Shown one piece after another: positions 34,769-52,650 of a DNA stretch of 64,000 nt (the first letter of the stretch is position 1; each line of letters opens with the position of its first letter). The notes below the pieces were generated by a model that had not been told where the DNA came from, ran no database searches, and was given only the letters and a program-made list of their open reading frames with translations. Position numbers and translations under genes: made by a program. Origin of the DNA: Ereboglobus sp. PH5-10 (GTDB lineage Bacteria; Verrucomicrobiota; Verrucomicrobiia; Opitutales; Opitutaceae); the NCBI RefSeq assembly GCF_029504735.1, contig NZ_JAQFIP010000002.1:186001-250000 (forward strand), in the 5' to 3' direction.

Positions 34769-35710
34769 TTAACGCGATTGCGCAAACACCCGCTTCGCAT
34801 TGCCGCCTAAAACCGCCTCAAGTTCCATCTCGCTCAACTCGCCTGTGCGTGCTTCGGCGATGAGCGACGCCATCGAATCAGCGGCGTTCGCGTCATTGTT
34901 TTTTGGATACAGAACAAGCGGATAATCCGTTCCAAACAAAACCCGTTCCGCGCCCGAGGCATCCGCCATCTCGCGCCAAATGCCCGCGCTGGTGTTCGCG
35001 CCATACGTCAGCGGCGACGCCGCCGTGTCATAAAAAATGTTTCCGAGGTTTCGCACCGGCTCACTCCATTCCGCATCCAGCGGCAACCGCGCCCCCCAAT
35101 GCGCCAGCACGAAGCGCGTCCCCGGATGCCGCAGCGCCCAGCGCACGAAATCTCCGATGGGCGTCTCCACCTTTCCCGGATAATTTCTTCGTCCCGCCTC
35201 GCCCGCCGATTCGGTGACGTGCATGCACACCGACAACCCCAGCTCGCCCGCAAGCGCCAGCGCCGCATCCATCGCCTCCCGCGCCGCCGCATCGGCCATC
35301 ACGCCCTGCGAATGTGGTGACAATTCACCAAGCCCGACAAACCCGGCCTCCGCCGCGCGCCTCACCGATTCGCGCGCCGCCTCCGCTCCCGCGCCCGGAT
35401 GCAGGGCCGCGCACGCGCTCAGTCGGTCCGGATGCGCGCGCACGCATTTTTCATAAAAACCATTCTGCCATTCGCATGTCTCCGGCCGCTCCCAATACCA
35501 TCCTTGGAGCACCGCGCGCGCCACGCCCGCCGCATCCATCGCGCGCAGCAATTCATCGACGCTTGGAAACTCCTGCACGCGTCGCCCGTCCTTTCGCGTG
35601 CGCGTGCACAGCACCGCCCAGTGCGCCTCGCCGCGCGCCGCCGCCCATTCAGCCGGAGCCGCGTTCAGCTCCGGCGGATACAAATGCACATGCGAATCGA
35701 CGATTTCCAT
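34769..35710 (-). CDS. Amidohydrolase-family TIM-barrel hydrolase
   Basis: 313 residues of the amidohydrolase-2 (PF04909-like) type. Metal ligands are visible as DSHVHLYPP (His7, His9), MHVTES, LAHWGARL and the terminal FGTDYPL aspartate. No signal peptide, so cytoplasmic. It lies 71 bp downstream of the sulfatase on the same strand, probably in one unit with it and the DUF4239 gene. The substrate cannot be inferred; lactone or carboxylic-acid hydrolysis/decarboxylation is usual for the family, which would fit catabolism of a sugar derivative. Confidence 0.8.
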   Translation of the reverse strand: MEIVDSHVHLYPPELNAAPAEWAAARGEAHWAVLCTRTRKDGRRVQEFPSVDELLRAMDAAGVARAVLQGWYWERPETCEWQNGFYEKCVRAHPDRLSACAALHPGAGAEAARESVRRAAEAGFVGLGELSPHSQGVMADAAAREAMDAALALAGELGLSVCMHVTESAGEAGRRNYPGKVETPIGDFVRWALRHPGTRFVLAHWGARLPLDAEWSEPVRNLGNIFYDTAASPLTYGANTSAGIWREMADASGAERVLFGTDYPLVLYPKNNDANAADSMASLIAEARTGELSEMELEAVLGGNAKRVFAQSR

Positions 35711-35781
35711 TTGCTTGGTTTCAAGACGAAAAAGTCATGCGGAGCCATTCCCAATTCCAAACTTCCAAGACTGTGACCGCC

Positions 35782-37401
35782 CTATCGTTTCAGCGGACGC
35801 TCCGGATCAAAATCGGGCGCCTCGAAATCGCTTTGTTCCACCCACGAGGTCCTTATCTTGGCGCGTTCGTTTTTGTTCATGAAGCGATTGTATAAATTCC
35901 TGTTTTTCGATGCGTAGGGATATTGGTCGAAAACATCGCCGCGTCCCTCCATGCGCGGGTCGTTTTGCCTGCGCAACTCGGCAAACAAACACTCTTTCAT
36001 TTGCGACAACCGCGCACTGTGCTCCGGCGCGCGGGCCAGGTTGTTCATGCAATCGGCATCCGTTGACAGGTCATACAATTCCTCCTCCGGGCGCATTCCG
36101 AAATTGAGCTCCCACATCCAGTGATTAACGCCCCGTCTGTTTTGCTCGAGGATTGCGGTCTTGGTCGGGCCGCCGTCCGTGTTCAAATATCCGGTTACCG
36201 GATCGCACATGGGCCAGCGCGCGGGCTCGAAATTTTTCAAATATAAAAAACCGTCCATGTGCAGGCCGCGTATCGGGTATCCGGTGTCATTCGGACGCCC
36301 CAGGTCGTGCCGCTCCTGTCCGACGAGCAGCATTTCCCGTCCCCGCGCATTGTTCTGAAATATATCCATCAAACTCCGCCCCTGAACCGGGGCCATGATT
36401 GCCGCCTGTGGAGCTCCGCTGGCGGCCTCGATGAATGTCGGGGCGAAATCTATGAAGCTCACATAATCGTGTGAAACACGTCCGGGATTTTTTATGCCGC
36501 GCGGCCAGCAAATCGCCAGCGGCATGTGCACGGATGCCTCGTAGGCGGTTCCCTTCATCCGGGGAAACGGCATGCCGTTGTCGGAAGTGACGACGATGAT
36601 TGTGTTCTCCAACTCACCCGCGCGCTCCAACGCCTCCAGCATGCGTCCGAGGTGCCTGTCGAAATGCTCCACTTCCAGCGCGTAATCGAGCATGTCGTTG
36701 CGCACGGTTTCGGTATCGGGCCAATACGGGGGCACGCGATCAATCTGCGCCGTGTTTTTGCCACCGACGGCGACACCGGAGCCGTATTCATATTTGCGAT
36801 GGGGCTCGCGCCCTCCATACCAAAAGCAAAACGGGCGTCCGGGGTTTCTCGATTTTAGAAACGACTCGAAGTTCCCCGCGTAGTCGATTGGCGAAATGCC
36901 TTTTGTCGGCGGGGTTGCCTTAACCCCATTGTATTCCGCGCCGGTTAATTGCCGACGCGTTCCATCCTCCGCAGTCCCCGGATCGCCCGGACTCCACCCT
37001 TTTCCCGTGAAGCCGGTTTCATACCCCATTCCGGAAATCGCCTCCATGAAGGTGCGGTATTCCGCGGGAAAATAACACCCGTGGTTCGCCGCCGCTCCGA
37101 GCTGCCAGCTGTTGCGCCCCGTGAGCACCGCCGCGCGCGACGGCGCGCACTTGGCATTCGGCGTGTAGGCGCGCATGAACAAAACACCCTCCCTCGCCAC
37201 GCGATCAAACGCGGGCGTGCTCACCCACTTGCAACCATACGCCGACATGTGCCCGAACGACGCGTCATCGGCGATGCAAAACAATATGTTGGGCCGGCCT
37301 GCCTTGTTGGCATCCGGCTGCGCGACCGCGCCGGACGTGAACAGCAACGGCGCGGCCATCGCGCACAAAACGCCACCCGCGGTATTTTTGACAATCTTCA
37401 T
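35782..37401 (-). CDS. Formylglycine sulfatase
   Basis: 539 residues with signal peptide (1-28, ending SGAVAQP). Metal site IADDASFG (Asp45, Asp46); maturation motif CAPSR with Cys85; [21 protein letters not shown] and [14 protein letters not shown] are further sulfatase signatures. The layout resembles polysaccharide (heparan-type) sulfatases of gut Bacteroidetes and Verrucomicrobiota, but specificity is not readable. It lies 31 bp after the DUF4239 gene and upstream of the amidohydrolase, divergent from the nahK-like operon, supporting a role in sulfated HexNAc glycan use. Confidence 0.9.
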
Positions 37402-37432
37402 GTCGGTATTATTTTTTGGGCTCCTTGATAAT

Positions 37433-38266
37433 CTACTCCCTCGGCGCCTTGATATCCCCGCCGATCGTTTGGTGAAGCGCGGCCATGCTGCCCTGGTTGA
37501 TGATGATGACGCCGCGGATCGGGCGGTCGAGGTCGAGGATGATGGTCAACACCGAGCAAATGGCCATGACCAGAACGACGTTTGGCCAGAAGATGCGCGT
37601 GCTTTTTAAACCGATGCCGTAGGCGAGCGTGCCGGTGGCGCAGGCCGAGACAAATATCAGCAGCCAGATGATCGCCTCGGGAATGTGATTGCCGCGCGCG
37701 GCGGTGCGGTCGTTTTCGTCGGAAAACACGCGGGTGAGTGTGTTCATGAAGTTTACGATTTGGTCCGCGCCGACGCCGGCCTTTTCGGTGTTGGCGCGTT
37801 CGAGCAATCGCACGGTCTCCGCCCACATTTCATTTTGCAGGATGTTTGTGCGGTCGATGTTGTCGCGCATCTGGTCGGCGCGCGTGCCCGGCGTGTAGTA
37901 TTCGGCGCGCAGGCCCGTGTATTCGTAAATCCGCTCCTTCATTTTTTGCGCGCCATCCCTCGGCAGGAGATCCGCGAACAGGTGGGCGGTCTGAAGGTCG
38001 TTGACCTCCTGCCGCAGCAAATCCTGCCGCGTGTTGAAACGCCCGAGCGCCATGCCGAAGGCGAAACCGAGCATCAAAGCGACAAGCCCCAGCAGCGTGC
38101 CGCCGAGCGCGGTGACCTGGCCGCTCAGATGCTCGCGCGCATTTGCGGCGCGCCGGCGCCCGTAGCGGAACGCGCATTCGGTGACGAGCAACAGAAGCGC
38201 GACCAGAACAATAAAAAACGCGGCCTCGTGGAAATAATGGAAAACTTCAGGCAATGGCTTGGGCAT
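37433..38266 (-). CDS. DUF4239 (bestrophin-like) membrane protein
   Basis: 277 residues from the ATG at 38266; the longer frame to 38341 adds an unlikely tail. Four hydrophobic helices are visible: [59 protein letters not shown] and [20 protein letters not shown], with a ~100-residue soluble helical segment between the second and third. The last helix runs into [11 protein letters not shown], the DUF4239 signature. The family is distantly like bestrophin channels; transport activity is unproven. It leads the unit with the sulfatase and amidohydrolase. Confidence 0.8.
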
Positions 38267-38407
38267 GGCGAAAAGGATGAAGTTGAGGGTTGTTGGTGAA
38301 ATACACAGTCGATGGTTTGCCGGGAGGCTGTTGTTTGACAATCCCTATCACCGCGCGGGTGCCGGTGTTTTGGCGAGCATCTAAAAAGTTAAAAATGAAA
38401 ACTAATT

Positions 38408-38450: not shown

Positions 38451-39590
38451 ATGAGCCATAACGCCCTCCCCTCCCCACCCTCGGACTTGGCCGATGTTGC
38501 CGGACAATTCATGCTGCACGGGCAGTTCCTGGGCGCGCAACCCTACGGTTCCGGGCATATCAACGACACCTTTGTCGCGCGATTCGACCAGTCGGGCGCG
38601 CCGGTTCGCTACATCTTTCAAAAAATAAACCAAAATATTTTCAAGGACGTCGCGGCGCTGATGGACAACATCGAACGCGTCACCAGCCACGCCTCGCGCC
38701 GCGCAAAGGAAAAAGGCACCGACGCCTCGCGCCGCGCGCTCACCCTTGTGCCGACCCGCGACGGACGCTCCCATCTCAATGCCGCCGGCGGCCACGCCTG
38801 GCGGTGTTACCTTTTCATCGAGAACGCGCGCACCTACGACATCGTCGAAACCCCGTCGCACGCGCGCGAGGCGGCCCGCGCCTTCGGCACGTTTCAAGGC
38901 CTGCTGAACGACCTGCCCGGCGGGCGCCTGCGCGAAACCATCCCCGATTTTCACAACACGCGCAAACGCTTCGAAAACTTCCAGCGCGCGCTCGCGGACG
39001 ACGCGCACAACCGCGCGGCGAATGCGCGCGATGAAATCGACTTCGCGCTAAAGAGCGAATCCATGGTGGACGTGCTGCTCAACCTCCAGAAAAGCGGCGC
39101 GATCCCCGAGCGAATCACGCACAACGACACCAAGATCAACAATGTGATGCTCGACGACGCCACGCACGAGGGCATTTGTGTGATCGACCTCGACACCGTG
39201 ATGCCCGGCCTCGCCCTCTACGACTTTGGCGACATGGTGCGCTCCGCGACAAACTCGGGCGCGGAGGACGAGCGCGACCTCTCCAAAATCTCCATGCGCA
39301 TGCCCTTTTACGAGGGGCTTGTATCCGGCTACTTGAGCGCCGCCGGCTCATTCCTGAACGAGGCCGAGCGCGCGCACCTCGCTTTTTCGGGCAAACTCAT
39401 CACCTTCGAAATCGGCCTGCGTTTTCTCACCGATTACCTTGAGGGCGACGTGTATTTCAAAACAAAACGCCCCGGCCACAACCTCGACCGATGCCGCACG
39501 CAATTCGCCCTCGCGCGCAGCATCGACTCGCAACAATCCGCAATGGAAACCATCACCACACGCATCGCAAACAAGGAGACCTCACAATGA
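38451..39590 (+). CDS. nahK: N-acetylhexosamine 1-kinase-like phosphotransferase
   Basis: 379 residues of the aminoglycoside-phosphotransferase fold. The N-terminal GSGHINDTF (33-41), catalytic HNDTKINNVMLD (His224-Asp226) and DLDT metal site (VIDLDTVMPGLALYDFGD) match the NahK group, which phosphorylates GlcNAc and GalNAc at C1. In bifidobacteria NahK works with a nucleotide-sugar epimerase; here the stop overlaps the start of an epimerase gene by 4 bp (ATGA), the same pairing. NahK relatives are often annotated mucin desulfatase; the kinase motifs argue otherwise. No Shine-Dalgarno upstream. Confidence 0.82.
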   Translation: MSHNALPSPPSDLADVAGQFMLHGQFLGAQPYGSGHINDTFVARFDQSGAPVRYIFQKINQNIFKDVAALMDNIERVTSHASRRAKEKGTDASRRALTLVPTRDGRSHLNAAGGHAWRCYLFIENARTYDIVETPSHAREAARAFGTFQGLLNDLPGGRLRETIPDFHNTRKRFENFQRALADDAHNRAANARDEIDFALKSESMVDVLLNLQKSGAIPERITHNDTKINNVMLDDATHEGICVIDLDTVMPGLALYDFGDMVRSATNSGAEDERDLSKISMRMPFYEGLVSGYLSAAGSFLNEAERAHLAFSGKLITFEIGLRFLTDYLEGDVYFKTKRPGHNLDRCRTQFALARSIDSQQSAMETITTRIANKETSQ

Positions 39591-40513
39591 AAGTGCTCAT
39601 CACCGGCGGAGCCGGATTCATCGGCAGTCACATCGCGGAACAATTGCAAGGACGCGCCGAAGTGCGCGTGCTCGACAGCCTGCGCACGGGATCCGAAAAA
39701 AACCTGGCGGGCATGAGCGTGGAGTTCATCGAGGACTCCATCCTGAGCCGCGACGCGCTCCGCGCGGCCATGCGCGGCGTCGATTATGTGTTTCACCTCG
39801 CCGCGCTGATCAGCGTGCCCGAATCCGTTGAGCGTCCGCACGAATGCGTTTCCCTCAACGTCACCGGCACGCTCAACGTCCTCGAGGAAGCCGCCGCCGC
39901 AGGCGTGAAAAAGCTCTTCTTCGCCTCGTCCGCAGCCGTCTATGGAAACAACCCCTCCGTGCCGAAACTCGAGACCATGCTTCCCGAGCCGCGCAGCCCC
40001 TACGCCGTGACCAAGCTCGACGGCGAATACTACTGCCGCCAGTTCGCCGAAACGGGGCGGCTCGACACGGTCGCCTTCCGGTTCTTCAACGTGTTCGGCC
40101 CGCGCCAGGACCCCGGAAGCGCCTACGCCGCAGCGGTGCCGATCTTCATGCAAAAGGCGCTCGCGAACGAACCGCTCACCCTCTTCGGCGACGGCGGGCA
40201 GACGCGCGATTTCATCTATGTGAAAGACCTCGCGGCGGCGTGCATCCAGGCCGCCACCACTCCCGGACTGTCCGGCGTGTTCAACGCGGGTTACGGCGGG
40301 CAAATCACAATACTCGAACTGGCGCAACGCATCATCGCCATGTCCGGCTCGCGCTCCGATATCCGCCACGCGCCGGAACGCGCCGGCGACGTGCGCCATT
40401 CGCGCGCAAACGTGGACGCGTTGCGCCAGGCGGGTGTTCCGCTGTCGGGATCGCTTGAGACGGGGCTGCGCGAAACGCTCGCGTATTACAAGGCATGCCA
40501 CGAAACCCGATAA
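39587..40513 (+). CDS. UDP-hexose / UDP-HexNAc 4-epimerase (extended SDR)
   Basis: 308 residues. NAD-binding GGAGFIGSH at 6-14, HLAALISVPESVERP, SSAAVYG, and the catalytic YAVTK motif in PRSPYAVTKLDGEYY, followed by RFFNVFGPRQDP. These place it with GalE/WbpP-type 4-epimerases; whether it takes UDP-Glc, UDP-GlcNAc or both cannot be told. The ATG overlaps the kinase stop and is preceded by AAGGAG at ideal spacing, one of the few clear ribosome sites in the window, so translation is probably coupled. With NahK it would feed HexNAc-1-P into nucleotide-sugar pools or epimerise GalNAc to GlcNAc. Confidence 0.85.
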   Translation: MKVLITGGAGFIGSHIAEQLQGRAEVRVLDSLRTGSEKNLAGMSVEFIEDSILSRDALRAAMRGVDYVFHLAALISVPESVERPHECVSLNVTGTLNVLEEAAAAGVKKLFFASSAAVYGNNPSVPKLETMLPEPRSPYAVTKLDGEYYCRQFAETGRLDTVAFRFFNVFGPRQDPGSAYAAAVPIFMQKALANEPLTLFGDGGQTRDFIYVKDLAAACIQAATTPGLSGVFNAGYGGQITILELAQRIIAMSGSRSDIRHAPERAGDVRHSRANVDALRQAGVPLSGSLETGLRETLAYYKACHETR

Positions 40514-41460
40514 AAAAGAGCGGCGCGCGCGCAAACGACCGGGCTTCGCTCAAGGCAGCCTGCGATCGAATCGGCAAATCGCTCAACCGGTTGGTCAATC
40601 CGGCCGACTTGTTTTCCGGCGCGAAACTGGAGGACGCCGCGGTCGCCGACAACATCATCATTTTCAAGCGCACCTCGCCGGACATGCTGCGGCCGCGCGG
40701 TGTGACGCACAATTACCATCATCGCTACGAATTGGTGGTGCCGCTTCAGAAAACCGGACGCATTCATGTGGACGGCGTGCCGTATCAACTCACACCCGGC
40801 ATGGCTTGCCTGATATTTCCGCACCAGTTTCACCATTATCTGGACATTGAGAAAGGGCCGATAAAGTGGGTGTTTGTTACCTTTGAAATGAAAAATGCCG
40901 CCACCCTGCGGCCCCTGCGCAACTCGCCGCGCAAGCTCGGCGCGCGCGAAATCGAAGAGCTCGACGCGCTTATTAATGAATATGCATCGCCCGCCGCCGC
41001 CCCCGGGCGCGGCTTGAATTTGGTGCTCAAGGTTTCCGACTTTCTGCAACGGCTCGCCAAATGCAGCGAAGCCGATTGCGTGATTCGCAACGACGGCGAG
41101 GAGTCGGACACGCGCGGCGCGATTCTGGAAAAAATCAACGCCTACGTGCGCTCGCACCTCGGGGAGCCCGTAACCATATCCGATCTCGCCGCGCACACTG
41201 GCTACTCGATTAGTTATTTGCGGGCGATCTTCCGCAAAAACCTGGGCGTGAGTCTCGGCAGCTACATGCGCGAATCGCGACTGTTGATTGCCGCGTCAAT
41301 GCTCGGCGATCCGAACCGCGGCAGCATTGAGGAAATCTCAAGGGCGTGCGGATTCGAGTCGATCCACGCATTCAGCCGCGCCTTCAAAAACGCCATGGGC
41401 ATGGCGCCGCGCGCCTACGGAAAATTCGTTCAGACAAACAACGCCAAATCCTCCACGTAG
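40495..41460 (+). CDS. AraC-family transcriptional regulator (nahK operon)
   Basis: 321 residues. The N-terminal half (~45-150) has the cupin-like ligand fold (THNYHHRYELVVPLQKTGRI, LIFPHQFHHYLDI). The C-terminal ~100 residues carry two helix-turn-helix motifs: VTISDLAAHTGYSISYLRAI and IEEISRACGFESIHAFSRAF. The ATG lies 19 bp inside the epimerase 3' end, so it is likely co-transcribed with the kinase and epimerase and regulates this locus by a sugar ligand. It resembles the second AraC protein (51763-52650) in architecture. Two palindromes follow the stop immediately. Confidence 0.88.
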   Translation: MPRNPIKKSGARANDRASLKAACDRIGKSLNRLVNPADLFSGAKLEDAAVADNIIIFKRTSPDMLRPRGVTHNYHHRYELVVPLQKTGRIHVDGVPYQLTPGMACLIFPHQFHHYLDIEKGPIKWVFVTFEMKNAATLRPLRNSPRKLGAREIEELDALINEYASPAAAPGRGLNLVLKVSDFLQRLAKCSEADCVIRNDGEESDTRGAILEKINAYVRSHLGEPVTISDLAAHTGYSISYLRAIFRKNLGVSLGSYMRESRLLIAASMLGDPNRGSIEEISRACGFESIHAFSRAFKNAMGMAPRAYGKFVQTNNAKSST

Positions 41461-41634: not shown

Positions 41635-43068
41635 ATGCGCGTTATGAGTCCCCGTAAAACCTTCCTCGTAGTGTCTGCCCTGATTGGCTGTTCGTTATCC
41701 GCCTTCGCCGGATCTTATGTGCCGAAGGACAACGAAATCCAGTTTCGCATCCTGCAAACCACAAAGGACAAGGCCCTGCGCGAAGTGGCATCGACACCTT
41801 TCACGCGGCACGAATACAGTTTGCTTAAGTCGATCGACTTGGATGCCGCCAAGCCTTCGCACGAATATTTCGGCATCGGGGTTTCGATGACCGACGCCAG
41901 TTGCTGGCTGCTTTCGCAGATGGATATCGAAGCCCGCCACAAAGTGCTCAAGGAGGCGTTCAGCTCCCGCGGCATGAACATCTCAATGATACGCCTCAAC
42001 TGCGGATCGAGCGACTACGCAACCGAGCTCTACAACTACAACGATAACGAGGGCGATGTTGAGATGAAGAAATTTTCCGTGGCGCGCGACGAGGCCTATA
42101 TGATTCCGATCATCAAGCGCGTCCACAGTTACCGCTCCGACTTGTTCACCTACGCGGCCGTGTGGAGCGTCCCGGGTTGGATGAAAGATTCCGGCGCCAT
42201 GTGCGGCGGCAGCCTGCTCGACAAATATTTGCCGTCGTTCGCGGCCTATTGGACGGCCTATCTCAAGGCCTACAAGGAACGCGGCGTTCGCATCGACGCC
42301 GTCTCGGTGCAAAACGAACCGGGAACCGACCAGCGCGGCGGCTGCCCCGCGACACTTGTCTCCGCAAAACAGGAAATCGAACTGGCCGGAAAACTGATGC
42401 CCGCGGCGTTCAAGGAGGCGGGGCTCGACACGGAAATATGGTTGTATGACTGGGATTACGAGGGTCGTGATCGTGTGAACCAGATGCTCGCGGACCCCGA
42501 CGTAAAGCGCAACGCGGCGGCCGTGGCATGGCATCCCTACGCCGGAAAGCCCGAGATGATGCGGGAAGTTTTGAAACAAAACCCGGGCACGAAAATGCAC
42601 CTGACCGAGCGCGGCCCCAACCTGGCGCTGAAAGACATCCAGACTCCGAAATGGTGGTCGGAGGTGATTTTTGGCGCCCTCAACAATGGCTGCTCCTCCT
42701 TCACCAGTTGGAATCTGCTCTTGGACGAGGACGGCCAGCCCAACACCGGAAGATTCCCTTGCGGCGGTCTCATGTCGATCGACACCGAAACCGGAAAAGT
42801 GAGCAAGAGCACGCAATGCGCCGTGTTCTTCCACTTCAGCCCCTACGTAAAGCGGGGCGCGCAGATCATGGCCATTGAGCAGCCGGACGACGCGCTGACC
42901 GCCATCACATTCAAAAACCCGGACGGCCAGTTTGTGATCGTCGTTGCCGCCGGTGAAAACCCCAAGGTGCGCCAGCGCTTTCAGGTCAAATTCAAGAACC
43001 AGTATCTGGCCGTCTGCCTGCCGCTGAACAGCTGGTCGCTGACAACCGTCATCATCGACAAACAATAA
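41635..43068 (+). CDS. Secreted glycoside hydrolase family 30 enzyme
   Basis: 477 residues with a signal peptide (residues ~1-26, FLVVSALIGCSLSAFAG). The GH30 retaining-mechanism residues are visible: acid/base Glu228 in DAVSVQNEPGTDQ and nucleophile Glu325 in MHLTERGP. The FGIGVSMTDASCWLLSQ start and the C-terminal beta domain (AIEQPDDALTAITFKNPDGQ) also fit. GH30 includes glucosylceramidases, beta-1,6-glucanases, fucosidases and xylanases; this one resembles the glucosylceramidase-like branch but the substrate is open. A second ATG at 41644 is possible. It is in the amino-sugar locus and convergent with the PIG-L gene. Confidence 0.88.
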   Translation: MRVMSPRKTFLVVSALIGCSLSAFAGSYVPKDNEIQFRILQTTKDKALREVASTPFTRHEYSLLKSIDLDAAKPSHEYFGIGVSMTDASCWLLSQMDIEARHKVLKEAFSSRGMNISMIRLNCGSSDYATELYNYNDNEGDVEMKKFSVARDEAYMIPIIKRVHSYRSDLFTYAAVWSVPGWMKDSGAMCGGSLLDKYLPSFAAYWTAYLKAYKERGVRIDAVSVQNEPGTDQRGGCPATLVSAKQEIELAGKLMPAAFKEAGLDTEIWLYDWDYEGRDRVNQMLADPDVKRNAAAVAWHPYAGKPEMMREVLKQNPGTKMHLTERGPNLALKDIQTPKWWSEVIFGALNNGCSSFTSWNLLLDEDGQPNTGRFPCGGLMSIDTETGKVSKSTQCAVFFHFSPYVKRGAQIMAIEQPDDALTAITFKNPDGQFVIVVAAGENPKVRQRFQVKFKNQYLAVCLPLNSWSLTTVIIDKQ

Positions 43069-44149: not shown

Positions 44150-45559
44150 TCATTTTTGCACGTCAGTTATCGCCGGCAGGCTGGCGGCGGCGATGGCCTG
44201 GCCATGGCGTTTTTCCTGCTCGCCGGGCGTGCGCAACGCGAGGCGCGTGGAGAGTTCGGGGAACTCCGCGTCCAGCACGGCGCGCGCGCGGTCGATGATG
44301 ACGCGACCGCCCTCACCGGATGTCACGCGGCCGAGGATGAGGATGTTGCGCAGCTCGTAGAAATCCGCGTAGTGGGCGAGCGAATAGCCGAAGCAGTCGC
44401 CCACGGTTTCGTAGATGGCGCGCGCGCGCGGGTCATCCTTCGTCATGGCCGCCTGCACGGCTTCGAGTTGCTCGGGCATCGGCATGGTTTCGGGGAAGCC
44501 GAAACCGGCGGCGCGGGCGAGGCGCGCCACGCCTTGCTGCGAAAAATACTGCACGCCGCAACCGCCGTCGCCCGACCATTCATCGCGGGGCGCGTCCTCG
44601 CGGTAATCGATTGGCGTGAACGCGAGCTCGTTGAGCCAGGGCGTGATGCCGCCCTTGGGGGTGACGTAGCCGCCGGCCTGGCTGGTGCCCATCGAGACGC
44701 CGAGCACGGCGTTGTCCTTCATGAACATCGAGCCGGCGAGCGCGGTCACCTCGCCGTCGTTGGCGACCTCGAAGGGCACGCCGCCCCAGCGTTCGCGCAG
44801 GTCGGGAAACATGCGGCGGATTTTTTTCTCAAAAAGCTCGGGTGTGATGTTGCGGAAAAGCGACGCGACACGCACCTCGTTGTTCACATACACGCCGGCG
44901 GAGCTGCCGCCGATGGCATCGACGCGAGGCAGGTGCGCGGCGGCGCGAACAAGCAAGTCCTGCACGCCGTCGATGTGATACGAGGGATCTTTTTCGAAAT
45001 ACGGACTCCACGGGATTTCCTCGGAAAACACCACGCGCCCGTCGATGAGCGCGGCGACTTTGCGATCGCTTCCGCCGAGGTCGAAACCGATGCGGCAGCC
45101 GTCGAGATGCCCGCCAACCGAAAGCTCGTCCTGAGACTCGGATGAGGACGCCGCGTTCGACACATCCGCGCGGGCGACCTCGAAGGGTTTCCCGTAAATC
45201 TTAGCCCCCATCATTTCGCAGTCGAACGCGCGCTCGCCCTGCGCTCCGTAAATGCGCTTGAGCGGCTCGACCAGCTCGTCCGCGCCCGCGATGAGCACAC
45301 GGCAGCCGCCGCGCTGCCAGAGGAGAAACTTGATCATGCGCTCGATGTGGCGGAGCGTGAGCGCGGCCCGCGGATGACCCGCGGCGAGTGCGCGCGTGCG
45401 ATGGGTTGTGCGGCCGCCATCGCCGCGCACGAGCGTGATTTCGACGTCGCGCGCGCCGTTGTCGTTTGCCACCAGCCGGCCGTAGGCGCGCGTCCAAAGC
45501 GAGGCGGGCACAAAGGCGGGATCGAGGGGAGGTGTGATTTTCGGACGAATGTCTGTCAT
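44150..45559 (-). CDS. ROK-family sugar kinase-like protein with N-terminal extension
   Basis: 469 residues, much longer than the usual ~300 of ROK kinases. Residues ~1-150 are an added domain I do not recognise (WTRAYGRLVANDNGARDVEI, RHIERMIKFLLWQRGGCRVL). The ATPase core starts at FDLGGSDRKVAALIDGRVVF (Asp160 phosphate loop), continues GGSSAGVYVNN, VANDGEVTALAG (catalytic-region Asp) and SMGTSQAGGYV. The classical ROK zinc motif CxCGxxGC is not visible. Context between the symporter and PIG-L genes points to GlcNAc or GlcN 6-phosphorylation, but a sugar-sensing role cannot be excluded. Confidence 0.75.
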   Translation of the reverse strand: MTDIRPKITPPLDPAFVPASLWTRAYGRLVANDNGARDVEITLVRGDGGRTTHRTRALAAGHPRAALTLRHIERMIKFLLWQRGGCRVLIAGADELVEPLKRIYGAQGERAFDCEMMGAKIYGKPFEVARADVSNAASSSESQDELSVGGHLDGCRIGFDLGGSDRKVAALIDGRVVFSEEIPWSPYFEKDPSYHIDGVQDLLVRAAAHLPRVDAIGGSSAGVYVNNEVRVASLFRNITPELFEKKIRRMFPDLRERWGGVPFEVANDGEVTALAGSMFMKDNAVLGVSMGTSQAGGYVTPKGGITPWLNELAFTPIDYREDAPRDEWSGDGGCGVQYFSQQGVARLARAAGFGFPETMPMPEQLEAVQAAMTKDDPRARAIYETVGDCFGYSLAHYADFYELRNILILGRVTSGEGGRVIIDRARAVLDAEFPELSTRLALRTPGEQEKRHGQAIAAASLPAITDVQK

Positions 45560-45892: not shown

Positions 45893-47863
45893 TCAGCCCA
45901 GTTTGATGCGTGTGGAGAGCCGCAGCGTGGCAAGCGTGGCGAGCACCGCCACGACGCAGAGCACCGTGCCCAGCGTCGAGCGCCCGTAGAGCAAATTGCC
46001 GATGCCGAACAGGGCCGACCAAACCGCAAGGCAGCCGACCATCATGCACAGCAGGCCGGTGGGCACATCCCACTTGCCCTTCGCAACGGACGACGCGGGC
46101 ATCGCAGCGCTCACCTTGCGCCAGCCGGGACCGCCCGCGCGGATTTTTTCGCAGAACTTCGCGAGCACTTCCTGCGGCTCGGGTTGCGTGAGGAATGTCA
46201 CGACCAGCCAGCCGGCGGTTGTCAGCAAAATGCCGAGGACGAGCTTCCACGCGCTGTAATCCATGATTGAGAACCAGCCGCTCTCGCGCATGGCCGCCTC
46301 GATGCCGAGATGCGGCGCGCCCCATTGGAAGAAACAGGCGACGGCGAAGGAGACGATCATCGCGGTGATTTCGCTCCACGCGTTGATGCGCCACCAGAAC
46401 CAGCGCAGGATGTAGAGCAGCCCGGTGCCGGCGCCGATCTGGAGGAGAATGTCGAAGGAATCCTTCGCGTTTTGCATCCAGAGCGCGACCACCCCCGAAA
46501 GCGCGAGCAGCGCGAGCATCGTAAGGCGCCCGACGAACACGGCGTGGCGCGGGCTGACGTCCTTGCGGATGAAGCGCGTGTAGAAATCCTGCACCACGTA
46601 GGAGGAGCCCCAGTTCAGGTGCGTGGCGATGGTGGACATGTAGGCGGCGATGAGCGAGGCGACGATCAGCCCGAGCCAGCCCTTGGGCATCTTGGAAATC
46701 ATGCCGGGATACGCGATGTCGTGCCGCAAGAACTGCTCGTCCACATTCGGAAACTCCCGCGCGAGACTGCCCGTTCCGGCGGCGTCGGCGCGCGCCTGGC
46801 GCACCTCGTTGCGCACGGTTTCGCCGAGTGTCGCGTCGCCGCTTTCGTAGCGGGTGACGAGATCCGGATTCGCGGCGAGCCACGTGCGCGCGGCGGCCTG
46901 CTGGTCGGGCGGGGTGAGCGGAAACTGCGTCAACGAAACGAGCGCGACGATGATCCACGGCCAGGGGCGCACGGCGTAGTGCAGGAAGTTGAACAGGAGC
47001 GTGGCGCCGACGGCGTTCTTTTCGTTTTTCGCCGAGAGCATGCGTTGCGCGATGTAGCCGCCGCCGCCGGGTTCGGAACCGGGATACCAGACGTTCCACC
47101 ACTGCACGGCCACGGGCAGAATCAACAACGTCATCAGCGTCGAAAGCCCGCCCTCGCGGTCGGGAAACATCGCCATGCGCGCCGAGACGTCGGCGTTGGA
47201 AAACAATTCACCCAGCGACGAGATGCCGCCGACCTCGGGCGACTTGACCGCGTAAACCGCCGCAAAAATCGCGCCGACCATCGCCACGGAATATTGGTAA
47301 AAATCCGCCCAGATCGACCCGGTCAGTCCGCCGAGCGTCGCGTAAACCGCCACGCCCGCCATGGCCCACAGCAATGTTTCCACAGGCGAAAGGCCGAAGA
47401 GCACCTGCCCGATCTTGATCGCCGCGAGCGACACGGTGGCCATGATCATGACATTAAAAAACACGCCCAGATACAGCGCGCGAAATCCGCGCAGGGCCGC
47501 CGCGGGACGTCCACTGTAGCGGATCTCGTAAAAGCCGAGGTCGGTGTCGAGCGCCGAGCGGCGCCAGAGTTTCGCATAGACAAAAACCGTCAGCATGCCC
47601 GTCAGCAGAAACGCCCACCACACCCAGTTGCCCGCCACGCCGTGCGTGCGCACGATGTCGGTGACGAGGTTCGGCGTGTCGCACGAAAACGTGCACGCCA
47701 CCATCGAGACGCCGAGCAGCCACCAGGGCATGGAGCGGCCGGAGAGAAAGAAGTCGCCGGCGCTGCGGCCCGAGCGGCGCGCGGCGGCGGAACCGACGAG
47801 CACCACCGAGATCAGAAAGCCGGCGATGATCGCCAAATCGAGAGACGAGAGGTTTGTTAGCAT
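45893..47863 (-). CDS. Sodium:solute symporter (SSS family)
   Basis: 656 residues with about 14 hydrophobic segments, starting LDLAIIAGFLISVVLVGSAA. The family hallmark GRSMPWWLLGVSMVACTFSCDTP covers the first two helices, and AYMSTIATHLNWGSSYVVQD is the conserved TM8-type region with Na2-site Ser/Thr. There is a soluble insert at ~330-400 and a long cytoplasmic C-terminal loop. The gene lies 60 bp downstream of the GH20 hexosaminidase and upstream of the ROK kinase, so the cargo is probably a GlcNAc- or GalNAc-type sugar; this is inference from context. Confidence 0.92.
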   Translation of the reverse strand: MLTNLSSLDLAIIAGFLISVVLVGSAAARRSGRSAGDFFLSGRSMPWWLLGVSMVACTFSCDTPNLVTDIVRTHGVAGNWVWWAFLLTGMLTVFVYAKLWRRSALDTDLGFYEIRYSGRPAAALRGFRALYLGVFFNVMIMATVSLAAIKIGQVLFGLSPVETLLWAMAGVAVYATLGGLTGSIWADFYQYSVAMVGAIFAAVYAVKSPEVGGISSLGELFSNADVSARMAMFPDREGGLSTLMTLLILPVAVQWWNVWYPGSEPGGGGYIAQRMLSAKNEKNAVGATLLFNFLHYAVRPWPWIIVALVSLTQFPLTPPDQQAAARTWLAANPDLVTRYESGDATLGETVRNEVRQARADAAGTGSLAREFPNVDEQFLRHDIAYPGMISKMPKGWLGLIVASLIAAYMSTIATHLNWGSSYVVQDFYTRFIRKDVSPRHAVFVGRLTMLALLALSGVVALWMQNAKDSFDILLQIGAGTGLLYILRWFWWRINAWSEITAMIVSFAVACFFQWGAPHLGIEAAMRESGWFSIMDYSAWKLVLGILLTTAGWLVVTFLTQPEPQEVLAKFCEKIRAGGPGWRKVSAAMPASSVAKGKWDVPTGLLCMMVGCLAVWSALFGIGNLLYGRSTLGTVLCVVAVLATLATLRLSTRIKLG

Positions 47864-47923: not shown

Positions 47924-49594
47924 TTATCGCGCCCGCGCGGGCGAGCCGTCGGGACGACGGTAGTTGGCGTTGACCTTGTCGAGATAACGAATCGCGGAAG
48001 GCAGGCGCTTTTGGAAGCAGCTCCAGTCGCGCGCCTCCTTCGGGCTCCACGCAACCTCAGCCAGCGCGAACATGCGCGGATACAGGTTATACTCGGCTCG
48101 GTTCCAATCGAAAAGATACTCGCCCCAAAGGTTCGCCTGGCAGCCGAGCACTTGCTTCTCGCGCTCCGGCGGCGTGCCCTCGGGAATGGGCTCGAAGTGA
48201 TACGCCTTCTCCAGCGTGACGAGCCGCTGCGGACGGTTGCCGGAACGATTGAGGGCAGGCTGCTCGTAATAGGGATCGGCCAGCTTGTCGTCGGCGGAGG
48301 CGAGGTAGTCCAGGTAACAATGGGAGTTTGGCGTCATCACGACATCGTTGCCTTTTTCGATGGCGAGCCGCGCCCACTTCCAGTCGCGCCAGACCATCAT
48401 CGTCGCGGTTGGCGACAGGCCGCCCTCCTGGATTTCATCCCAGCCGACGATGCGGCGTCCGCGCGCGTTGAGATATTTTTCGATGCGCGCGAGGAACCAC
48501 GATTGCAGCTCGAACTCGTCCTTCAGATTGTTTTCACGAATGACTTTTTGCGCGAAGGCGGACGCCTTCCATTGTTTTTTCGGAGCCTCGTCGCCGCCGA
48601 TGTGAATGTATTTTGAATTGGGAAACAACTCGCAAACCTCGTCGAGCACATCCTGCAAAAAGCGAAACGTCCCATCCTTGGGCGCGAAGATGTAGGGTTT
48701 CACGCCCCAGGTTTCGACGACCTTGGGCGCGTAGCCTTCGATGTCGCTGTTGCCGAGTTCCGGATAGGACGCGATGGCGGCGGCGGCGTGCCCCGGGATT
48801 TCGATTTCAGGAACGACGGTGATGCCGCGCTGATGCGCGTAGGCGACGATTTCGCGGACCTCGTCCTGCGTGTAATAACCGCCGTGCGGCACGCCGTCGG
48901 GTTTGTTGCGGTCGCCGGGCGTGGGAGAGTTGGCGCGCCACGCGCCGATTTGCGTGAGCTTGGGATATTTTTTTATCTCAATGCGCCAGCCCTGGTCCTC
49001 GGTGAGATGCCAGTGCAGCGTGTTGAATTTATACAGCGCCATGGCGTCGATCAATCGCTTCGCCGCAACCGGGCCGAAGAAGTGCCGCCCGTCGTCGAAC
49101 AACACGCCGCGCCACTTGAATCGCGGCGAGTCGTAAATGCGCACGACCGGCAGCGTGACGCGCGCGCCGTCCCGCGCCACGAGCTGCGCGAGTGTTTGCA
49201 GCGCGTAAAACGCGCCGTTGCGGGCGGACGCCTCGATGCGCACGGCGCCATCCGCGGCGACCTCAAGCGCGTAGCCCTCGGGATGCGCGACGTGCGCGTT
49301 CGCCGAGCGCGAGGCGGAATCAACGCTGATTACCGGACGGCCCGCCGCGGTCGCCGTTGTCGGGTGCACCGCCAGGCGCAATCCCGTCCATTCCAAAAGC
49401 GTGTCCGCATACACGCGCCCAAGTGCGGCATCGGCGCACACAATGACATGCGCCGCGCCCAACGGCGCGTCCGCCTTCGCATCGTCGCGCACGATCTGCG
49501 CGGGACGCGGGATGACATTGATTTCACCGGCGGCAAGCCCGCATGAAAGGACAACGCACGCAAGCGCGCCGAGGAGTAGTTTGTGTGGAGTCAT
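47924..49594 (-). CDS. GH20 beta-N-acetylhexosaminidase, secreted
   Basis: 556 residues from the ATG at 49594; a signal peptide (LLLGALACVVLSCGLAAG) follows. Residues ~22-140 form the GH20 N-terminal domain (INVIPRPAQIV). The barrel has HWHLTEDQGWRIEIKKYPKL and the substrate-assisted catalytic pair Asp335-Glu336 in HIGGDEAPKKQW. The enzyme would release terminal GlcNAc or GalNAc from chitin, mucin or peptidoglycan-type chains outside the cytoplasm. It lies 35 bp after nagB and 60 bp before the symporter, a tight catabolic operon. Confidence 0.95.
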   Translation of the reverse strand: MTPHKLLLGALACVVLSCGLAAGEINVIPRPAQIVRDDAKADAPLGAAHVIVCADAALGRVYADTLLEWTGLRLAVHPTTATAAGRPVISVDSASRSANAHVAHPEGYALEVAADGAVRIEASARNGAFYALQTLAQLVARDGARVTLPVVRIYDSPRFKWRGVLFDDGRHFFGPVAAKRLIDAMALYKFNTLHWHLTEDQGWRIEIKKYPKLTQIGAWRANSPTPGDRNKPDGVPHGGYYTQDEVREIVAYAHQRGITVVPEIEIPGHAAAAIASYPELGNSDIEGYAPKVVETWGVKPYIFAPKDGTFRFLQDVLDEVCELFPNSKYIHIGGDEAPKKQWKASAFAQKVIRENNLKDEFELQSWFLARIEKYLNARGRRIVGWDEIQEGGLSPTATMMVWRDWKWARLAIEKGNDVVMTPNSHCYLDYLASADDKLADPYYEQPALNRSGNRPQRLVTLEKAYHFEPIPEGTPPEREKQVLGCQANLWGEYLFDWNRAEYNLYPRMFALAEVAWSPKEARDWSCFQKRLPSAIRYLDKVNANYRRPDGSPARAR

Positions 49595-49628
49595 GGATGT
49601 GTGATGGGAGGGAAACGGAAACCAACTA

Positions 49629-51536
49629 TTATTCCATCCACTGCCGGAACGGTTCGATCGCCTCGTAGTTGGCGAGGCCGAACTCATCGTAGGCGCGGGC
49701 GACGGCCTGGTTGTGCTGCTCGGCCTGCTGCCACGCCTCGCCCGCCTGCTGGCTGCGCGCGGGCGTCTGGCTGCGCTGGCTTTTGTGATGGCAGATGGAT
49801 TGGATCTTTGCGGACAACTCCATCGGGCTCATCGGCACCGCCATGTCGATTTCGGCGATGTCCCAGATTCCCGAGGCGCCGCGATAAATCCACACGCGGC
49901 AATCGCGCCGCCAGGCGTCGTCGCGCGTTTTTTCAAGCGCCTGCCGCAGCACGCTGAAACAAATCGCGGGCAGCGAGCTCGGGTCCTCGGACGCGCCCGT
50001 GGCAAAAATCTGATGCGGCTCGATCTTGCGCAGGAGCGCCACAACCGCGTCCACATCCGCGTCGCCGATGCGGAACTGGCGGTAGCGGCCCTGCTCGTAA
50101 AACGGCAGGTCGAGGAAGACCGAGTTTTCCTTGGTCACGCCGCACGCGCGGACGGCGGCGCGCGCCTCCTCGCGTCGCAACGCGCCCTTGAAGCGGCGCA
50201 GTTCCGGCGGGTCGATGTCGAAGGCGGATTTCTCGTCGAGCTGCTGCCTGATTTTTCGGACAAATGTGTTGCTGGCTCCCTTCGCGTCGGAGTCCTCCAG
50301 CTCGATCATGAAGTCGGCATACGAGGCGGCCTCCTCGTCGGGCACGCCGAGGTTGCCCGATGTCTGGCAGGCCACGGTGACCTGGTGCCCCTGCTCGACA
50401 AGACGGCGGATGGTGCCGCCCATGCCAATCACATCGTCGGAAGGCTCGGGGCTCAAAACGAGCACGCGCTTCGGGTGCGGCGCGGCGCGCTCGGGACGAT
50501 GCGTGTCGTCCGCGTCGGGCTTGCCGCCGGGCCAGCCGGTGATGGTGTGCTGGAGTTCGTTAAAAATGCGAATGTTGAGGATGTAGGCGGGTCCCTGCTC
50601 CGTGAGCAAATCGGTCATGCCGTGCTCGGTGTAATCGTCGTCGAGGAGCTTGAGCACGGGCTTCTTGACCTGCCTCGAAAGCCACACGACCGCGCGGCGC
50701 GAAATCGTCGGGGTCCACTCGACCGGGCCGACCAGCCAGGGAAGTTTTATGCGCGTGAGCTCCGACGCCGAGGCGCGGTCAACATGGAAGGTGACGTCGC
50801 CATGCTGCTGGAGAAAACTCGCGGGCAGCGCCTCCGAGGGCGCTTTCTCGGCGGCCTCGGCAACCACGCGCGCCTTGGCCCCGCCCCACGAAAGCAGGAC
50901 GATGCGGCGCGCGTCGAGAATCGAGCCGACGCCCATGGTGATCGCGTGGCGCGGCACATTGGCCTCGCCGATAAAATCGCGCGCGGCGTCGCGGCGCGTC
51001 ATGCTGTCGAGCGTGACCAGGCGCGTGCGCGAATCCGCGCCGGAGCCCGGCTCGTTGAAACCGATGTGGCCGGTGCGCCCGATGCCGAGCACCTGCAAAT
51101 CGATGCCGCCGGCGTCCTTGATTTTCTGCTCGTAGGCGCGGCACCACGCAAACACCTCCGCGCGCGGCACCATGCCGTCGGGGACGTTGATGGCGGACGC
51201 GGGAATGTCGATGTGGTCGAAAAGCTGCTCGTGCATGAAGCGCCAGTAGCTTTGCGAATGCTCGCGCGGCAGGCCGTAATACTCGTCGAGATTAAAGGTG
51301 ACGACGTTCGCGAAACTCAGCCCCTCCTCGCGGTGCATGCGAATCAGCTCGCGGTAAAGGCGCACGGGCGTCCCGCCCGTGGCGAGCCCGAGGACGACGG
51401 AGCGCCCGGCCTTGGCGCGGGCGCGGATTAACCCGGCAATTTCGAGGGCGAGCGCGCACGACGCCTCGTCGGCTGTATCATGAATCTGGATACGGATGCG
51501 CTCGCGTTGCTGACTTTCGGTGGTGACTTGGTTCAT
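49629..51536 (-). CDS. nagB: Glucosamine-6-phosphate deaminase fused to PIG-L-like domain
   Basis: 635 residues, two domains. The N-terminal NagB domain (~1-275) has LGLATGGTP (49-57), FNLDEYYGL (Asp84, proton transfer) and GIGRTGHIGFNEPGSG (151-166). The second aspartate that E. coli NagB has in GxGxDGH is Thr here, as I recall for the Bacteroidetes-type fusions. Residues ~365-635 form a PIG-L/LmbE-like domain beginning KRVLVLSPEPSDDVIGMGG, where the histidine of the HPDD zinc motif is replaced by Glu. NagB converts GlcN-6-P to fructose-6-P and ammonia. It opens the minus-strand operon and is divergent from araC. Confidence 0.9.
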   Translation of the reverse strand: MNQVTTESQQRERIRIQIHDTADEASCALALEIAGLIRARAKAGRSVVLGLATGGTPVRLYRELIRMHREEGLSFANVVTFNLDEYYGLPREHSQSYWRFMHEQLFDHIDIPASAINVPDGMVPRAEVFAWCRAYEQKIKDAGGIDLQVLGIGRTGHIGFNEPGSGADSRTRLVTLDSMTRRDAARDFIGEANVPRHAITMGVGSILDARRIVLLSWGGAKARVVAEAAEKAPSEALPASFLQQHGDVTFHVDRASASELTRIKLPWLVGPVEWTPTISRRAVVWLSRQVKKPVLKLLDDDYTEHGMTDLLTEQGPAYILNIRIFNELQHTITGWPGGKPDADDTHRPERAAPHPKRVLVLSPEPSDDVIGMGGTIRRLVEQGHQVTVACQTSGNLGVPDEEAASYADFMIELEDSDAKGASNTFVRKIRQQLDEKSAFDIDPPELRRFKGALRREEARAAVRACGVTKENSVFLDLPFYEQGRYRQFRIGDADVDAVVALLRKIEPHQIFATGASEDPSSLPAICFSVLRQALEKTRDDAWRRDCRVWIYRGASGIWDIAEIDMAVPMSPMELSAKIQSICHHKSQRSQTPARSQQAGEAWQQAEQHNQAVARAYDEFGLANYEAIEPFRQWME

Positions 51537-51564: not shown

Positions 51565-51606
51565 AAAAGCTTGCCCATAATAGCCGCCGCCGTGTTCATG
51601 TGAAAT

Positions 51607-51621: not shown

Positions 51622-51664
51622 GTTTTTAACAAAAATGACAAAAGCTGTGAGCGCCATGAACGGT

Positions 51665-51740
51665 GGTGCGAACCCTCCGGGTGAGCCGCGACAATTTGAA
51701 TATCGTTACATAATTTCGGCTCAGCCGAAGGCTTCGCCCC
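51665..51740. repeat. Degenerate copy of the GGTGAGCCG palindrome upstream of araC
   Basis: Arms 51665-51688 and 51717-51740 pair at 20 of 24 positions and keep the CGAA..GGTGAGCCG theme of the elements at 9014 and 41493, with a 28-nt AT-rich loop. It ends 22 bp before the AraC ATG. Confidence 0.6.
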
Positions 51741-51762
51741 ACCCCCTGCCCCATTCCGCACC

Positions 51763-52650
51763 ATGACCCCCGACCTTAAAAAAATGATCGCCCTGCTTCC
51801 CTCGCCGAAGCACCCGCTGCGCGGACGCCGGACGGTGCCGCTCAACCTGCCCGAAAACATCATTTGTTTTGGCCGGCGCGAGGCCTCCGCCCTCAACCAG
51901 CCACAACGCGGACGCGCGCTGCACCGCCGCTTCGTGCTCATGCTCGCGCTTCAAACGGGTGTGACCGTGCGCGTGGACGACCGCGAAATCACATTAAACG
52001 AAGGCGAGGGCCTGATGGTGTTTCCGTTTCAATTTCACGACTACACAAACCCCGGCGACGAGACGCTGCAATGGCTGTTCATCACGTTCGACCTTGTGGA
52101 CGACGGGACGATGCAGGCGTTGCGCTACCAGCCGTTCGCGATTTCGCCCGCGATGCGATCACTCGCGACGGAGCTGGTCGCGACCTACTTAAAAACCGGC
52201 CCCTCTGCCAACGACCTCATCACGCTGCAACTCTCGCTCCTGCTCGCGCACATCCGGCAGACGAAACCCGCCTCGCAACGCCGCGCCAAGCCCACGCTCG
52301 CGCCGGGCCTCTTCACCAGGGTCAACGAAATCGTCGAGGACAAGGCGCAGCCGCCAAACGTGAAGGTGATGGCCTCGACGCTCGGAATCAGCGTGAGCCA
52401 TCTGCGCGCGCGCTTCCGCGAATCGTGCGGTGTGAGCCTGGGCAAACACCTGCGCCGCGTGCGCCTGGAAAAAGCGCGTGGTCTCCTGCGCCTGAGCACG
52501 CGCCGAGTGACGGAAATCGCCGAGATGTGCGGTTTCTCGTCGGTCTACACCTTCAGCCGCGCCTTCCACACCGCCTACGGTGTCGCCCCCCTGAACTACC
52601 GCAAGGGCGGCCATGTGAAATTGCAGACAAGCCAGAGGAAGAAAAAATAA
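51763..52650 (+). CDS. AraC-family transcriptional regulator (nagB operon)
   Basis: 295 residues. An N-terminal cupin-like sensor (VTVRVDDREITLNEGEGLMV, FPFQFHDYTNPGDETLQWLF) precedes two helix-turn-helix motifs at the C-terminus (VKVMASTLGISVSHLRARFR and VTEIAEMCGFSSVYTFSRAF). It is divergent from the nagB-GH20-symporter-ROK unit across a 226-bp gap with direct repeats, so it most likely controls that operon in response to an amino sugar or its phosphate. Its architecture parallels the AraC protein at 40495-41460. It is convergent with xerC, 33 bp away. Confidence 0.88.
   Translation: MTPDLKKMIALLPSPKHPLRGRRTVPLNLPENIICFGRREASALNQPQRGRALHRRFVLMLALQTGVTVRVDDREITLNEGEGLMVFPFQFHDYTNPGDETLQWLFITFDLVDDGTMQALRYQPFAISPAMRSLATELVATYLKTGPSANDLITLQLSLLLAHIRQTKPASQRRAKPTLAPGLFTRVNEIVEDKAQPPNVKVMASTLGISVSHLRARFRESCGVSLGKHLRRVRLEKARGLLRLSTRRVTEIAEMCGFSSVYTFSRAFHTAYGVAPLNYRKGGHVKLQTSQRKKK

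Follow-up and report, generated by a model that had tools for sequence, protein, structure and literature searches.

A candidate amino-sugar operon in Ereboglobus sp. PH5-10 with a PIG-L protein as predicted N-acetylglucosamine-6-phosphate deacetylase

The 64,000-nucleotide stretch of Ereboglobus sp. PH5-10 analysed here (the window; contig NZ_JAQFIP010000002.1, positions 186,001 to 250,000) carries, by a check of its open reading frames, thirteen genes between window positions 34769 and 52650. The core of this locus is read as a catabolic operon for N-acetylhexosamines (HexNAc) in which a stand-alone PIG-L protein would replace NagA as the deacetylase of N-acetylglucosamine-6-phosphate (GlcNAc-6-P), the PIG-L half of a NagB fusion would be dead, and a NahK-type kinase would serve a second route, a reading to which we give a probability of a little under 0.6. 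Judged from its genes, the locus is most likely a variant of a known amino-sugar operon type, and what is new is the PIG-L protein as predicted GlcNAc-6-P deacetylase. That prediction is made because PIG-L and NagA exchange places beside the same ROK-fold gene, because the PIG-L motif is intact, and because no NagA was found genome-wide.

In the proposed pathway, the glycoside hydrolase family 20 (GH20) enzyme would free terminal HexNAc, the sodium:solute symporter (SSS) would take it in, as its family suggests, and the ROK-fold protein would phosphorylate N-acetylglucosamine (GlcNAc) at C6, as its fold, retained motifs and context indicate. The stand-alone PIG-L protein, a predicted zinc enzyme, would then deacetylate GlcNAc-6-P in place of NagA, which is the central claim, and the NagB half of the fusion would turn glucosamine-6-phosphate (GlcN-6-P) into fructose-6-phosphate, the reaction of the NagB family. 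The second route would lead through NahK, an unlinked nucleotidyltransferase and an SDR epimerase from HexNAc to HexNAc-1-phosphate (HexNAc-1-P), UDP-HexNAc and the 4-epimer, and may be most useful for N-acetylgalactosamine (GalNAc).

Exchange of candidate deacetylase genes beside the ROK-fold gene

Gene order was surveyed around PIG-L relatives from the order, in 57 fetched regions of which some lie on short contigs (handles beginning with G denote genomes, those with L loci). NagB is present in 29 of these regions (52-70% identity), the ROK-fold gene in 25 (44-67%) and NahK in eight. The ROK and PIG-L genes lie within 60 nt of each other on the same strand in 21 of the 25 regions holding both, and NagB lies within 30 nt of the ROK in 19 of 21. 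The recurring unit in relatives is NagB, the divergent ROK and PIG-L, in that order, sometimes with NahK and the epimerase, GH20 and the symporter; the comparison of related genomes suggested in the preliminary description of this DNA thus bears out the linkage. In G169, the ROK of which is 83% identical, NahK, SDR, NagB fusion, GH20, symporter, ROK, PIG-L and AraC stand in one run, with GH20 between NagB and the symporter as in the window.

An alignment of the ROK-fold protein, itself built from PIG-L neighbourhoods, was scanned across genome contigs and yielded at least 528 confirmed relatives, of which the best 80 by ROK similarity were named irrespective of their neighbours. The slot beside the ROK was taken to be a same-strand gene no more than 600 nt away. 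Among the best 80 of at least 528 loci, it is occupied by PIG-L subfamily 1, that of the window, in 33 (32 by script and L212 by eye), by PIG-L subfamily 2 in six and by NagA in five. Four of the slot NagA proteins exceed the TIGR00221 cut-off of 225.65 bits (L234, 247; L247, 286; L258, 234; L270, 226.6), and the fifth (L264, 220.4) lies about 5 bits below it. Both kinds of occupant are found within the Lentisphaeria (NagA in L234, L247 and L258; PIG-L adjacent in L240 and 1-1.5 kb away in L254 and L257) and within the Bryobacterales (NagA in L264 and L270; PIG-L in L238 and L250). The two PIG-L subfamilies are distant from each other, their best pairwise match being 27% over 55 aa with an E of 0.002 in a tiny database. 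The three subfamily-2 proteins tested are PF02585 members by curated score, and the metal motifs are kept in 36 subfamily-1 and six subfamily-2 proteins of the named loci, the latter reading SPHPDDE and NSRHxxTH in 6/6. NagA and the two kinds of PIG-L therefore look interchangeable beside the ROK, as a shared reaction predicts, and the suggestion in the preliminary description that a PIG-L protein may supply the deacetylation step gains from this exchange: the protein is likely a deacetylase.

The ROK was also followed through an order sample of 132 genomes, 41 of which carry it: 29 with PIG-L 1, five with PIG-L 2 beside the ROK, four, all of one genus, with NagA only, and three with none of these. 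A PIG-L without any NagA at E<1e-30 is found in 14 of the 41.

The stand-alone PIG-L protein and NagA

The stand-alone PIG-L protein scores 49.0 bits with PF02585, against a curated cut-off of 28.2, and carries the motifs AHQDD and DKHDTH. Residues H34, D36, D37, H145 and H148 are kept in all 56 aligned stand-alone sequences, the window's included, a count from which the distant relative L095 was left out beforehand and for which L096 gave no match. In the excerpt available of a review of the LmbE superfamily, the family is described by an HxDD + H metal and general-base motif with 97-148 residues between the Asp and the His (PMC4101496); the window protein has this motif, with 111 residues from D37 to H148. 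An AlphaFold2 (AF2) model of high confidence (predicted local distance difference test, pLDDT, 96.7) matches BshB and diacetylchitobiose deacetylases (VIA-align Z 21-24), and a sequence search of the PDB with the protein gave no match. The two PIG-L modules of the preliminary description are indeed two PF02585 domains, only one of them a stand-alone protein and the other a domain fused to NagB; a genome-wide profile search places the only two occurrences of PF02585 in the host genome at this locus.

The host assembly (3.58 Mb, 45 contigs, completeness given as 100%) holds no nagA over the TIGR00221 cut-off, the best being a partial match of 25.2 bits against 225.65, in a search aimed at nagA and PIG-L and at no other kinds of deacetylase. 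Two Amidohydro_1 genes are present, neither of them over the nagA cut-off. As a control, TIGR00221 matched in 14 of 14 control genomes and passed its cut-off in seven. The lack of a recognisable nagA noted earlier for the locus can thus be extended, with this model, to the host genome, where there is no dedicated nagA elsewhere.

Similar situations occur among relatives. Pontiellaceae B12227 (G189), a Pontiella metagenome-assembled genome (MAG; G190) and G192 carry the arrangement of ROK and PIG-L 2; in each of the three, the PIG-L beside the ROK is the only one in the genome, and nothing more than fragments of NagA is present. Of the 54 genomes in the PIG-L 1 set (G023 would be a 55th, but matches at no better than E 5e-4), 30 have no NagA-like gene at E<1e-30. 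Eight of 20 PIG-L-adjacent genomes tested are without NagA beyond fragments. Many of the NagA-like genes that do occur stand beside a separate NagB-like gene, by an uncounted comparison of coordinates. A strict per-genome exclusion between NagA and PIG-L was considered and rejected, since 24 of the 54 PIG-L 1 genomes also hold a NagA-like gene at the same threshold. Likewise rejected was a NagA in the PIG-L slot of G071, suspected from a 381-aa gene: G071 has no NagA match among those listed, and the ends of the translation of this gene look unrelated.

The NagB-PIG-L fusion

The gene described earlier as nagB does belong to the NagB family, although it encodes a 635-aa NagB-PIG-L fusion rather than NagB alone (NF002557, 851.9 bits against a cut-off of 384; TIGR00502, 265 bits, also over its cut-off). 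Its PIG-L half reads SPEPSDD in place of SPHPDDD and DPSSLP in place of DPHGTH, with a Glu for the first metal-ligand His, a Ser for the general-base Asp and the final His gone. Given this observed loss of ligands, the fused half is probably catalytically dead here, and it was rejected as the deacetylase of the host genome. Glu occupies the first-His position in the window copy and in 24/24 fused copies of the first 57 regions. A survey of the order found 39 places over the fusion cut-off, of which 30 were given loci and read: SPHPDDD and DPHGTH are intact in two of the 30 (L097 and L100), and L098 (G028) shows a different, partial loss of the motif, SPLPDDA. As far as the motifs tell, loss in the fused domain is common, yet not tied to the neighbouring gene.

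The idea that a nearby stand-alone PIG-L always goes with a dead fused domain was rejected, because six loci carry an intact fused PIG-L, the ROK and an intact stand-alone PIG-L together. The intact fusion lies directly before the ROK in L213, L219 and L284 and about 4 kb away in L208, L215 and L288. Since both domains are intact in these six loci, a dead fused domain cannot account for the retention of the stand-alone PIG-L there.

The NagB fusion is part of a different sugar route in L056, L061, L139 and L140, where genes for a GFO/IDH/MocA oxidoreductase, a xylose-isomerase-like TIM barrel and an SSS symporter come after it; in two of these four loci the stand-alone PIG-L sits among them.

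Weighing the deacetylase assignment

Besides the six loci with two intact domains, a series of observations weighs against the replacement of NagA by the stand-alone PIG-L. NagA-like genes are present in many relatives, including the same-genus genome G133, in which the locus is 91-99% identical per gene and a NagA-like gene of 178 bits, under the cut-off, stands elsewhere. Twelve of the 20 PIG-L-adjacent genomes tested have a NagA-like gene, and one such genome, Chthoniobacter flavus (G195), has a true NagA of 292 bits. PIG-L and a NagA-like gene occur together in 20 of the 41 ROK genomes, and the five genomes with ROK and NagA carry other PIG-L proteins elsewhere. Conversely, 25 of the 54 PIG-L 1 genomes are without this ROK, and in 36 of the best 80 ROK loci none of the three deacetylases is adjacent, four of these having one elsewhere in the locus. 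The ROK has no assigned deacetylase in G018 (where another PIG-L lies 2.7 kb away on the opposite strand), G037 (where the contig is short) and G071, and an Akkermansiaceae MAG (G204, L239) has the ROK, no PIG-L and at most a fragment of NagA. The case from slot exchange is weakened by this co-existence, by the loci with none and by G204. Finally, the hydratase GalB is among the structure matches of the PIG-L model, so that the fold alone is no proof of deacetylation.

Many of these observations would also suit a PIG-L protein outside GlcNAc-6-P breakdown, acting on HexNAc-1-P, a conjugate or a cell-wall fragment, while a NagA-like protein or an intact fused domain, where there is one, does the catabolic step. 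Such an arrangement would fit the many genomes that keep PIG-L with NagA-like genes or with an intact fused domain and the 36 loci without an adjacent PIG-L or NagA, and other LmbE enzymes have varied substrates according to the excerpt of the review cited above (PMC4101496). We nevertheless hold it unlikely. In the host genome NagA is missing and the ligands are gone from the one other PIG-L domain, G189, G190 and G192 each manage with a single PIG-L and no NagA beyond fragments, and two distant PIG-L subfamilies share the slot with NagA. HexNAc-1-P in particular does not look like a general PIG-L substrate, because NahK is found in only seven of the 25 regions holding ROK and PIG-L.

The order of the two steps could also be reversed, with PIG-L acting on free GlcNAc and the ROK-fold protein phosphorylating the resulting glucosamine. 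This is somewhat unlikely. A chitin-degrading PIG-L enzyme, the archaeal diacetylchitobiose deacetylase, acts on an unphosphorylated sugar, according to the same excerpt (PMC4101496), and is among the structure matches, and the ROK model is as good a fit to glucokinases as to NagK. Phosphorylation first, followed by deacetylation of the 6-phosphate, is favoured because NagA, a family named for its 6-phosphate substrate, occupies the same slot at five of the best 80 loci. In addition, GlcNAc but not glucosamine supports the growth of two Pontiella type strains according to their description (PMC7356697), although a lack of uptake could be an alternative cause; the strains are congeners and not the genomes searched, which limits what their growth says in favour of the replacement of NagA.

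The divergent ROK-fold protein

Described earlier as a ROK kinase, the ROK-fold protein has a ROK fold in its predicted structure, and its sequence finds no Pfam match at E<=0.001, PF00480 included, and no PDB match at E<=1; the only PF00480 match of the host genome lies elsewhere (C1:72217-72678, one other ROK gene). In the model (pLDDT 90.4), residues 153-467 match ROK glucokinase, NagK, ManNAc kinases and ROK repressors, and the match to 2qm1 has a Foldseek E of 8.2e-18 and a VIA-align Z of 27.1 (295 aligned, root-mean-square deviation 3.0). The best named relatives of the protein are mostly Opitutaceae.

A role as sensor or regulator, which would leave the locus with the NahK route only, has in its favour that the ROK repressors Mlc and Lmo0178 are among the structure matches, that the usual ROK zinc motif, CxCGxxGCxE, is found in none of the 26 aligned sequences, and that about 150 extra residues precede the matched region at the N-terminus. 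It is nonetheless highly improbable, as GxDLGGSDRK, NDG and GTS are invariant in 26/26 sequences, the window's included, the top three structure matches are kinases, and AraC regulators already flank the operon. A HexNAc 6-kinase is accordingly kept as the proposed role.

Some features of this protein and its relatives stand apart from the question of its role. Residues 1-150 (window 45110-45559) are mostly confidently modelled, partly conserved and outside the coverage of the structure matches. At eight loci (L196, L198, L200, L201, L203, L204, L209 and L246) another ROK-like C-terminus, recognised by eye from N-A-G-I-x-G-A-A, immediately precedes the divergent ROK on its 5' side, and the latter has neither PIG-L nor NagA beside it; the same ROK protein may have a different use there. 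L184 (G080:C10:74209-75841) has an additional copy of the ROK gene with a 59-residue PIG-L fragment (47% identity) next to it, which looks like the remnant of another ROK-PIG-L unit.

The proposed C1-phosphate route

NahK is homologous over its full length to 4wh1, a solved N-acetylhexosamine 1-kinase, the match covering residues 14-368, and the start of the SDR gene overlaps the nahK stop. The SDR protein scores 173 bits with the galE model, below its cut-off, and its PDB relatives include UDP-glucose 4-epimerases, WbgU and WbpP. A nucleotidyltransferase-like gene, with a weak Pfam match, stands between PIG-L and the NahK-SDR pair in L063, L065 and L067, and a 55% relative of it is present in the host genome at an unlinked site (G000:C1:151441-152325). 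Of the two HexNAc entry routes proposed in the preliminary description, the kinase genes of both types are present, C6 (ROK) and C1 (NahK with the epimerase); the substrates are predicted from homology and context, and the routes are plausible. In Pontiellaceae bacterium B12227 (L227), two tandem NahK-like genes (222 and 420 bits) follow ROK, PIG-L 2 and NagB, and are themselves followed by the SDR.

Gene inventory and neighbours of the core

The genes are listed in Table 1. All those named in the preliminary description were recovered as open reading frames in their places, each matching its family in Pfam or NCBIfam, ROK excepted, and two further genes lie in the span, for an Amidohydro_2 protein and a bestrophin-like protein. 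The NagB-PIG-L fusion, GH20, symporter, ROK-fold and stand-alone PIG-L genes share the minus strand, with the bestrophin-like, sulfatase and amidohydrolase genes on it further left. On the plus strand, NahK, the SDR epimerase and an AraC gene have overlapping ends and are followed by GH30, and a second AraC gene diverges from nagB. The GH20 protein probably starts, with its signal peptide, 93 nt downstream of the first ATG. The Amidohydro_2 protein has no NCBIfam match at E<=0.001.

Table 1. Features of the locus, in window positions
Feature	Position	Strand	Basis
Amidohydro_2 (TIM-barrel) protein, not NagA; neighbour	34769..35710	-	PF04909 100 bits
S1-type sulfatase; neighbour outside the conserved core	35782..37401	-	PF00884 137 bits, CAPSR motif
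Bestrophin-like membrane protein; neighbour	37433..38341	-	PF14023
NahK-type N-acetylhexosamine 1-kinase	38451..39590	+	APH family; phmmer to 4wh1, E 1.8e-86
SDR sugar-nucleotide epimerase, probable UDP-HexNAc 4-epimerase	39587..40513	+	PF01370 202 bits
AraC-type regulator 1	40495..41460	+	HTH_18
GH30 hydrolase; neighbour outside the conserved core	41635..43068	+	PF02055
Stand-alone PIG-L/LmbE-type protein, subfamily 1; proposed GlcNAc-6-P deacetylase	43127..43978	-	PF02585, motifs, AF2 model
Divergent ROK-fold protein, 469 aa; proposed HexNAc 6-kinase	44150..45559	-	predicted fold, invariant motifs
Sodium:solute symporter (SSS), probable HexNAc importer by family	45893..47863	-	PF00474 93 bits
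GH20 beta-hexosaminidase	47924..49687	-	PF00728 367 bits, HIGGDE motif
NagB (GlcN-6-P deaminase) fused to a PIG-L domain without metal-ligand residues	49629..51536	-	NF002557, TIGR00502
AraC-type regulator 2, divergent from nagB	51763..52650	+	HTH_18

Relatives of the symporter, 86% identical, are found in the G169 operon and in L193, relatives of AraC 1 stand beside the operon in L040, L193 and G169, and nagB has an AraC gene diverging from it in other loci too, among them L043, L058, L064 and L068. Control of the divergent units probably lies with the two AraC proteins. In four of the ten genomes compared, the ROK is the only one of the window's genes present.

The preliminary description took the whole span as a candidate sulfated-glycan locus, and the sulfatase and GH30 enzymes could act before the HexNAc core does. 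The same-genus G133 retains the sulfatase, GH30, bestrophin-like and amidohydrolase genes together with the core, and in the PDB the sulfatase is best matched, in pieces, by a GlcNAc-6-sulfatase. A single locus of this kind is improbable, and that claim is not supported: none of the four genes was found in the 40 kb fetched of G169, which has the full core in one run, and they are on this ground genus-level neighbours. No GH30 match turned up in any of the 57 PIG-L regions, where matches to the sulfatase are distant (24-47% identity, mostly partial), while the bestrophin-like gene is found in G133 only among the ten genomes compared. The GH30 protein itself is closest to beta-1,6-glucanase and glucosylceramidase enzymes, below the curated cut-off (178 bits with the BT3312-type 1,6-glucanase model against 700). 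Outside the span, the minus strand of the window encodes at 29349-31118 a protein of 589 aa for which Pfam gave nothing at E<=0.001.

Implications and comparison with known systems

Among the papers listed in searches of the open-access literature, none deals with a PIG-L protein acting as a GlcNAc-6-P deacetylase. In the portion available of a survey of gut genomes, known and predicted non-orthologous replacements in these pathways include none for NagA, and the GlcNAc pathway is absent from the Verrucomicrobia among its genomes (PMC5583593). The main text of the LmbE superfamily review, in the excerpt available, has no occurrence of "6-phosphate" (PMC4101496).

The wider proposal is that two distant PIG-L subfamilies each replaced NagA beside an undescribed family of ROK-fold kinases across the Verrucomicrobiota, Kiritimatiellales/Pontiellaceae, Lentisphaeria and Acidobacteria, for which the chances are close to even and which is put forward tentatively. 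With the same reserve, a non-orthologous enzyme would have taken over a textbook step, a replacement that escapes every curated model used here. If it is true, reconstructions based on nagA overlook that some Verrucomicrobiota and relatives break down GlcNAc, and a substrate is suggested for two families, that of the stand-alone PIG-L proteins and a large one of ROK-fold proteins that has no name (at least 528 loci). The prediction for the PIG-L protein is specific and can be tested by one enzyme assay or one complementation.

The bifidobacterial NahK (lnpB) belongs to the lacto-N-biose pathway. The window NahK is homologous to it over nearly its whole length and is likewise paired with a 4-epimerase-like SDR, but there is no uridylyltransferase in the locus, the genome not having been searched for a GH112 phosphorylase or GalT, and the nucleotidyltransferase is unlinked here, though operonic in some relatives. 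The NagB protein is a member of the PRK02122/NF002557 NagB-PIG-L fusions, and differs in its PIG-L half, where the first metal-ligand His, the general-base Asp and the last His, all kept in other members seen here, are gone. With the archaeal diacetylchitobiose deacetylase, an LmbE/PIG-L protein, the stand-alone PIG-L shares the fold, the HxDD + H motif and an amino-sugar setting; the identity over the fold is about 12-17%, and here a phosphorylated substrate is proposed, with NagB and the ROK-fold protein as partners. The locus resembles the classical nagK-nagA-nagB arrangement in keeping genes for a kinase, a deacetylase and a deaminase together with fructose-6-phosphate as the proposed end product, and departs from it in having a PIG-L candidate in place of NagA (TIGR00221) and, as candidate kinase, a divergent ROK-fold protein outside the Pfam models.

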